Assembly (NCBI RefSeq): GCF_007559025.1
Contig: NZ_CP041765.1
Coordinates: forward strand, 678,679-742,678
Direction of reading: 5' to 3'
Length of the DNA stretch: 64,000 bases
Origin: Tomitella fengzijianii
Lineage (GTDB): Bacteria > Actinomycetota > Actinomycetes > Mycobacteriales > Mycobacteriaceae
Shown piece after piece: positions 7,288 through 10,814 of the stretch. The notes beneath the pieces were generated by a model that searched no databases, was not told the origin of the DNA, and saw nothing but the letters and a program-made list of their open reading frames with translations. The translations under genes were made by a program, and so were the position numbers. The first letter of the stretch is position 1; each line of letters opens with the position of its first letter.

Positions 7288-9194
7288 GGGTTCGGCAGTG
7301 CGCCGTCGTCGCCGGCGGCCGCGCGGGACCCGGCGTCCGAGGACTGCGCGGGGACGACGGAGCCGAACGGGCCGCCGCCGAAGCACAGGTTCAGATCGGG
7401 GGTCACGGCGGAGACGTCCACGGTGGCGCCACCGCCCGTCAGGCGCACGTACGCCGTGCCGAGACCGCTGTGGACCGGCACGGTGACGGGGGGCCCGCCG
7501 GACATGGAGACCTCGATCGTGCCGTCGCGGTTGCTCAGATAGTTGAGCTGCGCCGTCCACACCCAGGGGATCACGGGCTGGGAAAGCGCGATTGCGCCGT
7601 CGACCCCGGGCGCCACGGCCACTGCATCCCCGGTGACGCGCGTGCCGCAGCCGGGAGCCATGCCTTCGGTGAGCGCGCGGACCCAGGACACCTCCGCCGG
7701 CACCAGGTGCCCGTCGTCATCGAGCATTCTCAGGGCGGGGGTGGAATCGGAGAACGCGGGACGGTCGCGCAGCGGGCCGAAGACCTGGCTGGACTGGTTG
7801 TAGGGCGCGGCCACCGGCAACAGCACCCAGATCGACACCGGCTGCGAGAGCAACGGGACGTCCCTGTTCGCGGCCAGTTCGGCCTTGGCGGTCGTAACGT
7901 AGTCCACCGTGGGGTTGTCGCGCCAGCGCTGGTCGAACGTGAAGGTGGACCACAGGCTTCCGGCGAGGAAGGCGACGGCGGCCAGCGCGGTGAACGCCGG
8001 CCGGCTCCGCACGGACAGGAACGGCCGGAACGCCGGGTGCGTGGCGCGGCGCGGCGCCTGATCGATGATGGCGAGCGCGATGGCGACGACCACCGCGGTG
8101 TCGGCGACGTACCGGAGAGTCTGGGCGATCTCGACCGCGGTGGCGTCACCCCCGCGGGTCGTCACCATGGCGAGCTGCGATGCCAGGGCGTACGCGGCCA
8201 CCGACGGCCACACCCACCCGATCCGCCGTCGTCGCAGGTGGTTGCCGACGATGACCGCGACGATGAGGAGCCAGGAGACGACGACCAGTACGACGGGCGG
8301 GGTGGCCCATGGCGGGCTCGGCGGCCAGCGGTCCCAGCTCCACGGGCCGCCGAACAGGGCGGGGAGCAGTCCGAGCGAGGTTCCGTGCTGCAGCAGACCG
8401 GCCGCGTCGTCGATGTTGTCGGTGCGCAGCGGCGACGCGACGTGGGAGAAGTAGACCGCCGCCCAGGCGGCGAGGATCACCAGGGCGGACGCCCAGAGGG
8501 GGGCGCACGCGCGTGCGGTGGAGCGGAGCGGCCGTCGGATGCCCGACGTGTGGGCCAGCAACGCCACCGCGACGAACGCGACGAACGGGATGACCACCGA
8601 CTTTTCGTAGAACGCGAGCGCGATGACGAGAGCGGCGGCGCCCGTCACCGCGTGCCGGACGCGCCCCGTCCGGTACAGCAGGATCGCCTCGGCCGTCACC
8701 AGGGCCAGCCCCGCCTGCAGCGGAAGCTGGTTGAGGCCGTTCGCCCACCATGCGAACGACGGCAGGGTGAGCGGCGAGAACAGGTAGAGCGCCAGCGGGA
8801 TCAGCATCGTGGGCCGACTGCCGAGGATCACGCGGAGCACCCGCAGGACCGCCAACGATGCCAGCGCCTGCAACACGACGAGGCTGATCGCCGGGAGCGC
8901 CCAGTCCAACGGGGCGATCCTGGTGAGGATCCCGGCTACGAGGAAGGCGCCGGGCATGAGGTGGCCGTCGTGGTCGTACAGGAGGAACTCTGCGGAGAGC
9001 AGAGGGTGGTCGCCGGACCGGGCGACGAGTATCAGGTCGTCCCAGTAGAAGTACCCGCGGGCGGCGACGGTCCCGCGGATCAGTAGCTGAACGGCGATGA
9101 GTGCGAACGCGGCCATCATCACGCGGCGGGTGCCCGTGAAGGCTCGGGGCGATCCCGCGCGGCGCGCACGGGATCGTTCGGGCGCGATGGTCAC
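7284..9194 (-). CDS. GT-C-like multispanning membrane protein
   Basis: 636 aa: about ten helices in the first 430 residues, then a soluble C-terminal domain of about 200 residues. The first large loop after helix 1 carries YFYWDDLILVAR, with the acidic pair typical of the metal/donor site in GT-C glycosyltransferases that use polyprenyl-linked sugars. I infer a membrane glycosyltransferase; the donor and acceptor are unknown. The GTG start at 9194 gives an N-terminus of basic residues before helix 1. The frame upstream of it runs through the divergent HTH gene and is not coding. A possible -10 TATCGT (9208-9203) suggests a near-leaderless message. Coupled to the acyltransferase by GTGA. Confidence 0.72.
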   Translation of the reverse strand: MTIAPERSRARRAGSPRAFTGTRRVMMAAFALIAVQLLIRGTVAARGYFYWDDLILVARSGDHPLLSAEFLLYDHDGHLMPGAFLVAGILTRIAPLDWALPAISLVVLQALASLAVLRVLRVILGSRPTMLIPLALYLFSPLTLPSFAWWANGLNQLPLQAGLALVTAEAILLYRTGRVRHAVTGAAALVIALAFYEKSVVIPFVAFVAVALLAHTSGIRRPLRSTARACAPLWASALVILAAWAAVYFSHVASPLRTDNIDDAAGLLQHGTSLGLLPALFGGPWSWDRWPPSPPWATPPVVLVVVSWLLIVAVIVGNHLRRRRIGWVWPSVAAYALASQLAMVTTRGGDATAVEIAQTLRYVADTAVVVAIALAIIDQAPRRATHPAFRPFLSVRSRPAFTALAAVAFLAGSLWSTFTFDQRWRDNPTVDYVTTAKAELAANRDVPLLSQPVSIWVLLPVAAPYNQSSQVFGPLRDRPAFSDSTPALRMLDDDGHLVPAEVSWVRALTEGMAPGCGTRVTGDAVAVAPGVDGAIALSQPVIPWVWTAQLNYLSNRDGTIEVSMSGGPPVTVPVHSGLGTAYVRLTGGGATVDVSAVTPDLNLCFGGGPFGSVVPAQSSDAGSRAAAGDDGALPNP

Positions 9195-9223: not shown

Positions 9224-9268
9224 TGTCAATAAATGTTGACAGCATTGAGGTGTCAACGTACATTGACG
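9224..9268. promoter_or_regulatory. two TGTCAA-N6-TTGAC(A/G) palindromic operators
   Basis: Palindrome 1 is at 9224-9241 and palindrome 2 at 9251-9268, 27 bp centre to centre. Site 1 contains the -35 of the HTH promoter and site 2 covers its -10. This suggests dimeric repressor sites, probably for the adjacent HTH protein. They also face the divergent GT-C gene. Confidence 0.65.
9236..9264 (+). promoter_or_regulatory. sigma-A type promoter TTGACA-N17-TACATT
   Basis: A perfect -35 TTGACA (9236-9241), 17-bp spacer and TACATT -10 (9259-9264). The start is expected about 7 bases on, at 9271, which is the A of the HTH gene's ATG. The message would be leaderless. Confidence 0.7.
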
Positions 9269-9270
9269 TT

Positions 9271-9573
9271 ATGGATGCGGGATCGAGGATCGACGGAGCC
9301 GCCGGGGAGGCGCCGGATGACGGGGACACGACGGAAGTCGGGGAGGGCGCGGGTTCGGAGGACACCGCCGCGCTCGTCCGGGGCGCCGCCGCGGCGGAAC
9401 CGGCCATCGGGCTCGTGGCCGTGCGCGCGCTGCGGCGCCTCACCGAACGGCTCGAGAGCCTGCAGGTGGATGCGGCCCGCAGGCAGGGCTGGTCCTGGCA
9501 GGCGATAGCCGACCTTCTCCAGGTCAGTCGCCAAGCAGTGCACCAGAAGCACGGCCGGCGCACGCACCGTTGA
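9271..9573 (+). CDS. small HTH regulator paired with Clp-N protein
   Basis: 100 aa. An acidic Gly/Asp-rich head (1-40) is followed by helices and a C-terminal helix-turn-helix near residues 73-95 (GWSWQAIADLLQVSRQAVHQ). ATG 9271 is chosen because it sits 6 bases after the -10 and follows the operators; an upstream in-frame ATG at 9223 would lie inside the operator. There is no ribosome site, which fits a leaderless message. It is followed 82 bp later by the Clp-N protein, a pairing I recall from other actinobacteria. Likely an autoregulator of this two-gene unit. The target signal is unknown. Confidence 0.75.
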   Translation: MDAGSRIDGAAGEAPDDGDTTEVGEGAGSEDTAALVRGAAAAEPAIGLVAVRALRRLTERLESLQVDAARRQGWSWQAIADLLQVSRQAVHQKHGRRTHR

Positions 9574-9655
9574 TGCGGACCGCTCGGGGCGCATCCGGCA
9601 GCGCACAGTACGAAACAGACTGGCGCACAGTTCGAAACAGACTACGGAGGACACG

Positions 9656-10393
9656 ATGTTCGAAAGATTTGCGCGAGACGCGCGCCGCATAGTGATAGTG
9701 GCGCAGGATGAGGCGATCGACCTGGGAAGCGCCCAGGTGGACCCTCGGCACTACCTGCTCGCGATGCTGCTCGCGGCGGAACCGCCCGTGCGGAGAGTGC
9801 TCGAGGACGCGGGATTCACGGTGGAGCAGGTGCGCGACGATATCCGTACCGCCGACGCGACTGTGCACGACGCGGCGCAGGACCGGCCGGGGACGGCGCT
9901 GAACGCCGAGGACGTGGATGCGCTTCGCTCGATCGGAATCGATCTGGACGCGGTGCGTGAAAGCATCGAGGCGCAGTTCGGACCGGAAGCGCTCTCCGAC
10001 GAGGTCGCCGCTGATGATCCGGCGCCCGACGCGGGCTTGCGGGACGAAGAGCGTCCGTCGGAACGCGGACGGGGGAGGCCGGGCGATCGACGGCACCCCG
10101 ACGGCGATTGCGGCCACGGCCACGGCCGCGGCGGGCCGCACGGTCGCCGGGGCAGGGGCCGGCGCGGCGGCGGGCGCTTCGGCAGGGTTCGCTTGGACGC
10201 GGACGCGAAGAGATCTTTGCAATCCGGGTTGGGTCACGCCGTCCGTGAGCGGGCGGGGGAGATCACCGGCGCATACCTGTTGTTGGGGGTGCTGTCCGGC
10301 GCGTCGGGGCCTACCAAGCGGCTCATCGAAACCCGTACGACGACGGAAGCGCTGGCCGACCGAGTGAAGGCCTCGATGGGTTCCGCTGCGTGA
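9656..10393 (+). CDS. Clp N-terminal domain protein without ATPase module
   Basis: 245 aa. Residues 1-80 are a Clp-N repeat (FARDARRIVIVAQDEAIDL and DPRHYLLAMLLA), and residues 182-240 are a second half-repeat (ITGAYLLLGVLSG). They are joined by a Gly/Arg/His-rich linker (about 135-178) that looks disordered. No AAA+ Walker motifs are present, so it cannot be a ClpC/ClpB unfoldase itself. Clp-N domains bind adaptors or aggregated substrates, so it may act as an adaptor, decoy or stress sensor. A good ribosome site (GGAGG) precedes ATG 9656. Probably co-transcribed with the HTH gene. Confidence 0.8.
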   Translation: MFERFARDARRIVIVAQDEAIDLGSAQVDPRHYLLAMLLAAEPPVRRVLEDAGFTVEQVRDDIRTADATVHDAAQDRPGTALNAEDVDALRSIGIDLDAVRESIEAQFGPEALSDEVAADDPAPDAGLRDEERPSERGRGRPGDRRHPDGDCGHGHGRGGPHGRRGRGRRGGGRFGRVRLDADAKRSLQSGLGHAVRERAGEITGAYLLLGVLSGASGPTKRLIETRTTTEALADRVKASMGSAA

Positions 10394-10430: not shown

Positions 10431-10814
10431 ATGATCAGTTTCGGAGTGCGCCTCGTCAGCAACGCGGTCGCCATCTGGGTGGCGACCTATCTGCTGGCCG
10501 GCATCTCGCTCGACACCGACCAGCACGACACGGCGACGGCCGTCCTGGTGTTCCTCGGGGTCGCCCTGGTGTTCACGGTGGTCAACCTGATCATCAAGCC
10601 GATAGTCATGGTGCTGTCCCTGCCGCTGCTGATCCTGACGCTGGGGATCTTCTACTTCGTGGTGAACGCGTTGATGCTCATGTTCACCGCGTGGCTGTCG
10701 CAGGAGTTCGGCTGGGGCTTCGAAGTCGAGGGATTCGGCACCGCCCTGCTCGGCGCCATCGTGATCTCGATCGTCAACATGATCCTGTCGGTTCTGATCC
10801 CCGATCGTCGCTGA
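10431..10814 (+). CDS. phage-holin-4 family (YvlD-like) four-helix membrane protein
   Basis: 127 aa, almost entirely four hydrophobic helices with short loops, matching the phage_holin_4_2/YvlD family found in many bacterial chromosomes. Despite the name these are not tied to lysis. No phage genes are near. It starts at ATG 10431, six bases after a CACGAT hexamer that could be a weak -10, so a leaderless start is possible; no ribosome site is visible. It lies 37 bp after the Clp-N gene, so it may also be the third gene of that unit. The 3' end faces menA with a hairpin between. Confidence 0.75.
   Translation: MISFGVRLVSNAVAIWVATYLLAGISLDTDQHDTATAVLVFLGVALVFTVVNLIIKPIVMVLSLPLLILTLGIFYFVVNALMLMFTAWLSQEFGWGFEVEGFGTALLGAIVISIVNMILSVLIPDRR

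Follow-up and report, generated by a model that had tools for sequence, protein, structure and literature searches.

The closest described counterpart of the gene pair analysed here is ClpC2 of mycobacteria (Rv2667 and its Mycobacterium smegmatis homologue), a single protein that joins an N-terminal domain bearing a helix-turn-helix (HTH) to a Clp-N domain and acts at CGTCAAC-n5-GTTGACG sites to repress its own promoter (Taylor et al. 2023, PMC10030653). According to the available parts of that report, self-repression is backed by electrophoretic mobility shift assays (EMSA), reporter and knockout data, and the sites, two in many species, cover the putative -35 and -10 elements of a presumably leaderless gene. 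Cyclomarin A releases ClpC2 from DNA, ClpC2 then soaks up the compound, and clpC2 mRNA rises 263-fold with cyclomarin (same source). The ClpC2 of M. tuberculosis binds ecumicin and ilamycin compounds but is not induced by them (PMC12913811, available part), so that binding alone is no predictor of induction. We describe here an HTH gene and a Clp-N gene of Tomitella fengzijianii, located in a 64,000-nt stretch of contig NZ_CP041765.1 (assembly GCF_007559025.1, positions 678,679-742,678, forward strand; hereafter the window). The regulator, its sites and the pair have good support in the sequence and make up a real and conserved locus, by its build a ClpC2-like switch split over two genes; its sensing and sponge steps are those that we infer from ClpC2.

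Like ClpC2, the window locus combines an HTH of the ClpC2 kind with a Clp-N domain and no ATPase, and it carries GTCAA/TTGAC half-sites over the -35 and -10 elements, the last site lying 1-2 nt before the start codon. Unlike ClpC2, it consists of two open reading frames (ORFs) instead of one polypeptide, its operators have a spacer of six nucleotides (N6, 18 bp) where that of ClpC2 is 1 bp longer (N7, 19 bp), and its Clp-N protein has an additional conserved IGIDLDAV insert and does not keep the residues equivalent to F80 and E89 of ClpC1. In the one profile comparison made, the match between the HTH and the N-terminal domains of ClpC2 extended over 43 columns, with a probability of 96.4 and an E-value of 1.4e-9. 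The genes of the original prediction, a 100-aa HTH gene followed by a Clp-N gene without ATPase, are both present and likely form an operon. Present too are the two palindromes, exact matches to TGTCAA-N6-TTGAC and 27 bp apart, that it had placed over a TTGACA/TACATT promoter (Table 1).

Shuffled sequence reproduced these tandem palindromes in 0 of 100 shuffles, and chance palindromes are ruled out by this result and by a genome scan with a reversed-pattern control. The exact N6 site occurs nowhere else in the 4.0-Mb genome, so that the operators look dedicated to the HTH/Clp-N operon; a wider regulon in this genome was rejected for exact sites, searched genome-wide. The two operators are moreover asymmetric in the way that a promoter requires, since a -10-like TA at positions 3-4 of the spacer is found in 40 of the 46 proximal operators and in none of the 46 distal ones at the HTH/Clp-N loci surveyed below (8 of 21 and 3 of 21, respectively, at loci without Clp-N). 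At all 46 loci, the proximal TTGAC is followed after 2-4 nt by the first start codon in frame. In the window, the sequence geometry predicts a leaderless messenger whose first nucleotide is the A of the ATG at 9271 or lies close to it.

The conservation of this unit was surveyed from the DNA as well as from the proteins. Of the 394 class genomes scanned by DNA pattern alone, 111 have tandem N6 sites, and among the rows listed for these genomes the reversed-pattern control gave no tandem match. Seventy N6 loci were drawn from the scan listing, leaving out G089, G321, G236, an overlapping second place in G396 and the window itself. An HTH gene of the same family comes next in 67 of the 70 (with a weak match in L088, L102 and L115, E-values 1e-5 to 3e-8); it is followed by Clp-N in 46 and by another gene in 21, and three loci (L060, L076 and L086) have no such HTH. 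The gap between the HTH and Clp-N genes is at most 15 nt in 43 of the 46 pairs, 17 of which overlap as TGATG. A profile search with the HTH, in turn, covered 118 genomes and gave 59 matches in 54 of them, the window's own HTH included. Clp-N comes after the HTH in all of the best 30 of these 59 matches; an exact N6 site is present in 29 of the 30, two sites in 21, and the exception (L206) has an N6 site with one mismatch. Exact N4, N5, N7 or N8 sites were found in none of these 30 loci over the stretch searched. Finally, 30 loci were read from a search with the Clp-N protein, several short Clp-N-like matches without a locus being left out. Eleven relatives and the window have a recognised HTH/Clp-N pair, and each of these 12 pairs has at least one site before its HTH. 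Absence of the palindrome from other HTH/Clp-N loci, which the original prediction had named as evidence against itself, is thus the opposite of what these protein searches returned. A contig scan with the single Clp-N protein as query gave one relative, from Conexibacter. The DNA-pattern and HTH-profile sets share genomes, many of the surveyed genomes are relatives, and counts across genomes are not independent. On this conservation, a module of repressor and Clp-N protein under its own tandem operators appears well supported.

The same genome also encodes a fused ClpC2 (L013, 241 aa) with one N7 site, the only N7 site of the genome. Tandem N7 sites are found in 105 of the 394 genomes. In a subset of 30 N7 loci given out of these genomes, 22 encode a fused ClpC2, seven lie near a different protein whose HTH resembles that of ClpC2 and one has neither that could be found, while a fused HTH/Clp-N ORF occurs at none of the 70 N6 loci. 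Operator spacing and gene architecture therefore go together, N6 with the split form and N7 with the fused one, and 40 genomes, counted by eye from two tables, have both kinds of tandem sites. A third ATPase-less Clp-N protein of this genome, a 186-aa frame at L014:1056-1613, seems by eye to be without the insert of the split family.

The window protein was confirmed to have a Clp-N domain and no AAA+ modules, and modelling predicts for it the fold of the ClpC1 N-terminal domain. It differs from ClpC1, whose N-terminal domain is represented by PDB 3wdc, 6cn8 and 8ibp, by this lack of AAA+ modules and by a long insert between the repeats. Another small Clp protein, as the window protein is, has been described in M. 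smegmatis: ClpC3, the second of its kind there, is said to bind cyclomarin and ecumicin (PMC10864484, available part). Conservation within the split family is concentrated in the insert, where 13 of the 17 invariant alignment columns fall in residues 86-109 (the rows of L024 and L025 starting one or two codons ahead of the likely start). Its core pattern (IGIDLDAV-like) is found in 49 of 55 split proteins, against none of 22 fused ClpC2, and some of the six split proteins without it show a near variant. The 55 comprise a set of 52, namely 46 from the N6 loci, the window protein and five relatives, incomplete or frame-broken ones included (L068, L103 and L104), to which L019, L024 and L025 were added; L026, L027 and L029 were not recovered. 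The linker rich in Gly, Arg and His was considered as a metal- or DNA-binding element, and no claim is made for it because the length of the protein is too variable (118-334 aa among the 52).

The reading that we favour, with somewhat more confidence than doubt, is that a probably self-repressing HTH protein and the ClpC1-N-like protein form a two-gene counterpart of ClpC2 that senses and soaks up a ClpC1-directed molecule, probably an antibiotic. An HTH dimer on each palindrome would block RNA polymerase and keep the promoter shut, since the -35 and -10 elements fall inside these sites. The Clp-N protein would bind the HTH protein in trans, perhaps through the conserved insert, because ClpC2 carries both halves on a single chain and most relatives have the two genes overlapping or almost adjoining. 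The Clp-N protein would also carry the ligand site, so that a ligand of ClpC1-type N-domains could loosen the complex from DNA; once the operon fires, additional Clp-N protein would titrate the ligand away from ClpC1. In a cell that has both systems, the 1-bp difference between the N6 operators and the N7 operators of ClpC2 may keep the two paralogous switches apart. The cyclomarin contacts of the window protein weigh against this reading. Indeed, of the 52 family members, 47 keep F2, 42 keep F80 and 37 keep E89 (ClpC1 numbering), and the window protein has F, L and Q at these places, two of the three contacts being lost, which implies a drift of this copy away from the cyclomarin pocket.

An alternative that we consider unlikely, though one to be reckoned with, is that the HTH protein is both repressor and sensor, or is freed by a different factor of the cell, and that the Clp-N protein acts as an effector sponge that never contacts the regulator. 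It draws on the HTH loci without Clp-N, where Pfam was applied to the next gene at 10 of 21. ABC transporter membrane domains were identified in L051, L052, L053 and L058, beta-lactamase-family proteins in L077, L078, L079 and L095, an FAD-binding domain of the monooxygenase type in L115, whose HTH match is weak, and a pyridoxamine-oxidase-like protein in L050. At all of these but the last, the presence of the same tandem operators and a related HTH before a gene other than Clp-N was counted in favour of this alternative. By eye, the neighbours in L054, L055 and L057 resemble the same ABC protein. Against an HTH protein sensing by itself, the ClpC2 fusion and the close gene spacing in most relatives favour joint action of the two proteins, and the HTH protein is modelled as a bare small helical domain, which would leave little room for a ligand pocket. 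One further locus, L076 (about 1422-1940), has tandem N6 operators directly before a gene that looks by eye like an alpha/beta-hydrolase, and the family HTH was not found there.

The original prediction had proposed a proteostasis switch in which the Clp-N protein feeds or blocks ClpC or ClpB. In this scheme, which we judge quite unlikely, the Clp-N protein would bind unfolded clients or adaptors of ClpC1/ClpB, overload would derepress the operon, and the additional Clp-N protein would block or buffer ClpC1. Clp-N domains do serve ClpC as docking sites, which is in its favour. However, none of the 10 Pfam-tested neighbours of Clp-N-less HTH genes is a chaperone, and the window protein has R and A at the equivalents of E31 and E106 of ClpC1, which we take to be phospho-arginine contacts. 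The scheme can also draw on clpC2 mRNA, which rises about twofold on heat shock, the authors proposing holdase activity or substrate competition for ClpC2 (PMC10030653, available part), but the 263-fold response to cyclomarin is far above this. The module of repressor and Clp-N protein under its own operators has thus held up, whereas the feeding or blocking of ClpC/ClpB is less well supported. A response to a small molecule or a peptide toxin would be the better first guess, because ClpC2 is an antibiotic sponge and related HTH genes precede exporters and hydrolases.

The N6 operators accompany the HTH gene even where no Clp-N gene comes next, HTH following in 67 of the 70 loci and Clp-N in only 46; the operators hence track the HTH and not Clp-N, and the HTH probably reads DNA, in ClpC2 as well. 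The reverse, that the Clp-N half does so, as published for ClpC2, seems to us very improbable. In its favour, the R185A/R189A substitution in the Clp-N half of ClpC2 weakens DNA binding and its M. smegmatis equivalent (R188A/R192A) raises clpC2 mRNA 2.0-fold (PMC10030653, available part); the former effect speaks for some part of the Clp-N half in DNA binding. On the other side, EMSA with the isolated C-terminal domain and with R57A, a dimer mutant, indicated that the dimer is required for high-affinity binding, and R57A, in the N-terminal domain, raised clpC2 mRNA in M. smegmatis 4.6-fold (same source). The dimer requirement and the larger effect of R57A agree with the HTH as DNA reader. Furthermore, the structure of the ClpC2 N-terminal part (PDB 8ada) is a chain of 72 residues whose alignment ends at ...SWSDIGKSMGV, the turn of the HTH, and the second HTH helix (TKQAAQKRF in the ClpC2 of T. 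fengzijianii) is missing from it. Together with the link between operators and HTH, this makes the published view, in which the Clp-N half binds DNA, look incomplete. An HTH region in ClpC2 was already remarked in the paper on RelI (PMC13284704, available part). Foldseek and VIA returned generic HTH folds only for the HTH model, and the absence of 8ada and of the RelI structure 9sdc among the matches listed proves nothing.

A toxin-antitoxin-like pair, with an antitoxin resembling RelI of the RelS-RelI system and Clp-N as the harmful partner, can appeal to the HTH that RelI and ClpC2 have in common (PMC13284704, available part) and to a weak match of the window HTH to 9sdc (E-value 0.036), its only tie to RelI, but is scarcely credible, as no catalytic part is known in Clp-N, a domain for binding, and ClpC2 is protective, a strain with twofold derepressed clpC2 having grown normally in rich medium (PMC10030653, available part). 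The partner of RelI is the ribonuclease toxin RelS; next to the window HTH there is no RelS gene but a Clp-N gene.

The HTH also occurs with a different Clp element. Frames of 128 aa that combine a ClpX-type zinc finger with an HTH lie behind tandem N7 sites at L125:1539-1922 and L130:557-940. Such a protein was recognised in 7 of 13 loci tried. Of those that came from a protein search, L148 has one exact N7 site; by eye, L147 has two N7 sites that mix GTCAG and TTGAC halves, and GTCAG-N7-CTGAC is present at L150, L151 and L153. The zinc finger label is based on residues 15-69, which are 52-58% identical to frames about as long as ClpX. It leans in addition on what we presume to be the corresponding cysteine motif. 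These proteins suggest that this HTH acquired a reception domain of a Clp unfoldase more than once. In L118-L122, N7 tandem operators lie near an HTH fused to another conserved domain, GPVTAFDE...CRAFPWIYLVRD. No description of the HTH/Clp-N pair, of the N6/N7 difference or of the ClpX-zinc-finger HTH proteins was found among the open-licence papers listed. With confidence falling just short of even, we propose that one actinobacterial HTH family acting on GTCAA/TTGAC palindromes, its paralogues separated by N6 or N7 spacing, runs decoy switches that repress themselves and would use the reception domain of a Clp unfoldase as sensor and sponge, be it the Clp-N of ClpC1, in one or two proteins, or the ClpX zinc finger (L125, L130, L147 and L148). 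Related operons would carry exporters or hydrolases, and the HTH of ClpC2 would read DNA, a role missed by the truncated crystal structure.

Table 1. Features of the HTH/Clp-N locus in window coordinates
Feature	Position	Strand	Remark
Distal operator, TGTCAA-N6-TTGACA	9224..9241	none	Right half is the -35 element; kept in relatives
Promoter, TTGACA (9236-9241), 17 bp, TACATT (9259-9264)	9236..9264	+	From sequence geometry
Proximal operator, TGTCAA-N6-TTGACG	9251..9268	none	Holds the -10 element; ends 2 nt before the ATG
HTH gene, 100 aa	9271..9573	+	ATG at 9271, stop at 9573; predicted dimeric autorepressor
HTH motif, residues ~73-96	9487-9558	+	Within the 100-aa HTH gene
GGAGG	9646..9650	+	Likely ribosome-binding site of the Clp-N gene, read from the sequence
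Clp-N gene, 245 aa, without AAA+ module	9656..10393	+	Predicted ClpC1 N-domain fold
Insert between Clp-N repeats, residues 82-113, LNAEDVDALRSIGIDLDAVRESIEAQFGPEAL	9899..9994	+	Most conserved stretch of the family
Gly/Arg/His-rich linker of the Clp-N protein	9998..10180	+	Predicted disordered; length differs among relatives

The start of the HTH gene was set at 9271, whereas the mechanically called ORF begins at 9097, because no open frame extends farther upstream in relatives such as L020, L021 and L061. The gap of 82 nt between the two genes of the window is a loose exception to the tight spacing of the relatives, and two 21-nt direct repeats (GCGCACAGTWCGAAACAGACT) lie inside it at 9601-9643. 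Next downstream is a gene (10431-10814) whose product of 127 aa seems, by eye, to be membrane-bound.

Several natural antimycobacterial peptides target ClpC1. If the gene pair, conserved across Actinomycetes, senses and titrates ClpC1-directed molecules, it would constitute an unmapped response to such compounds, and its promoter, should this reading be true, would be a ready reporter for finding new ones. The survey also offers a directly testable correction of the ClpC2 model, in which the HTH, and not Clp-N, would read DNA, and a natural case where a difference of 1 bp in operator spacing may separate paralogous repressors within one cell.
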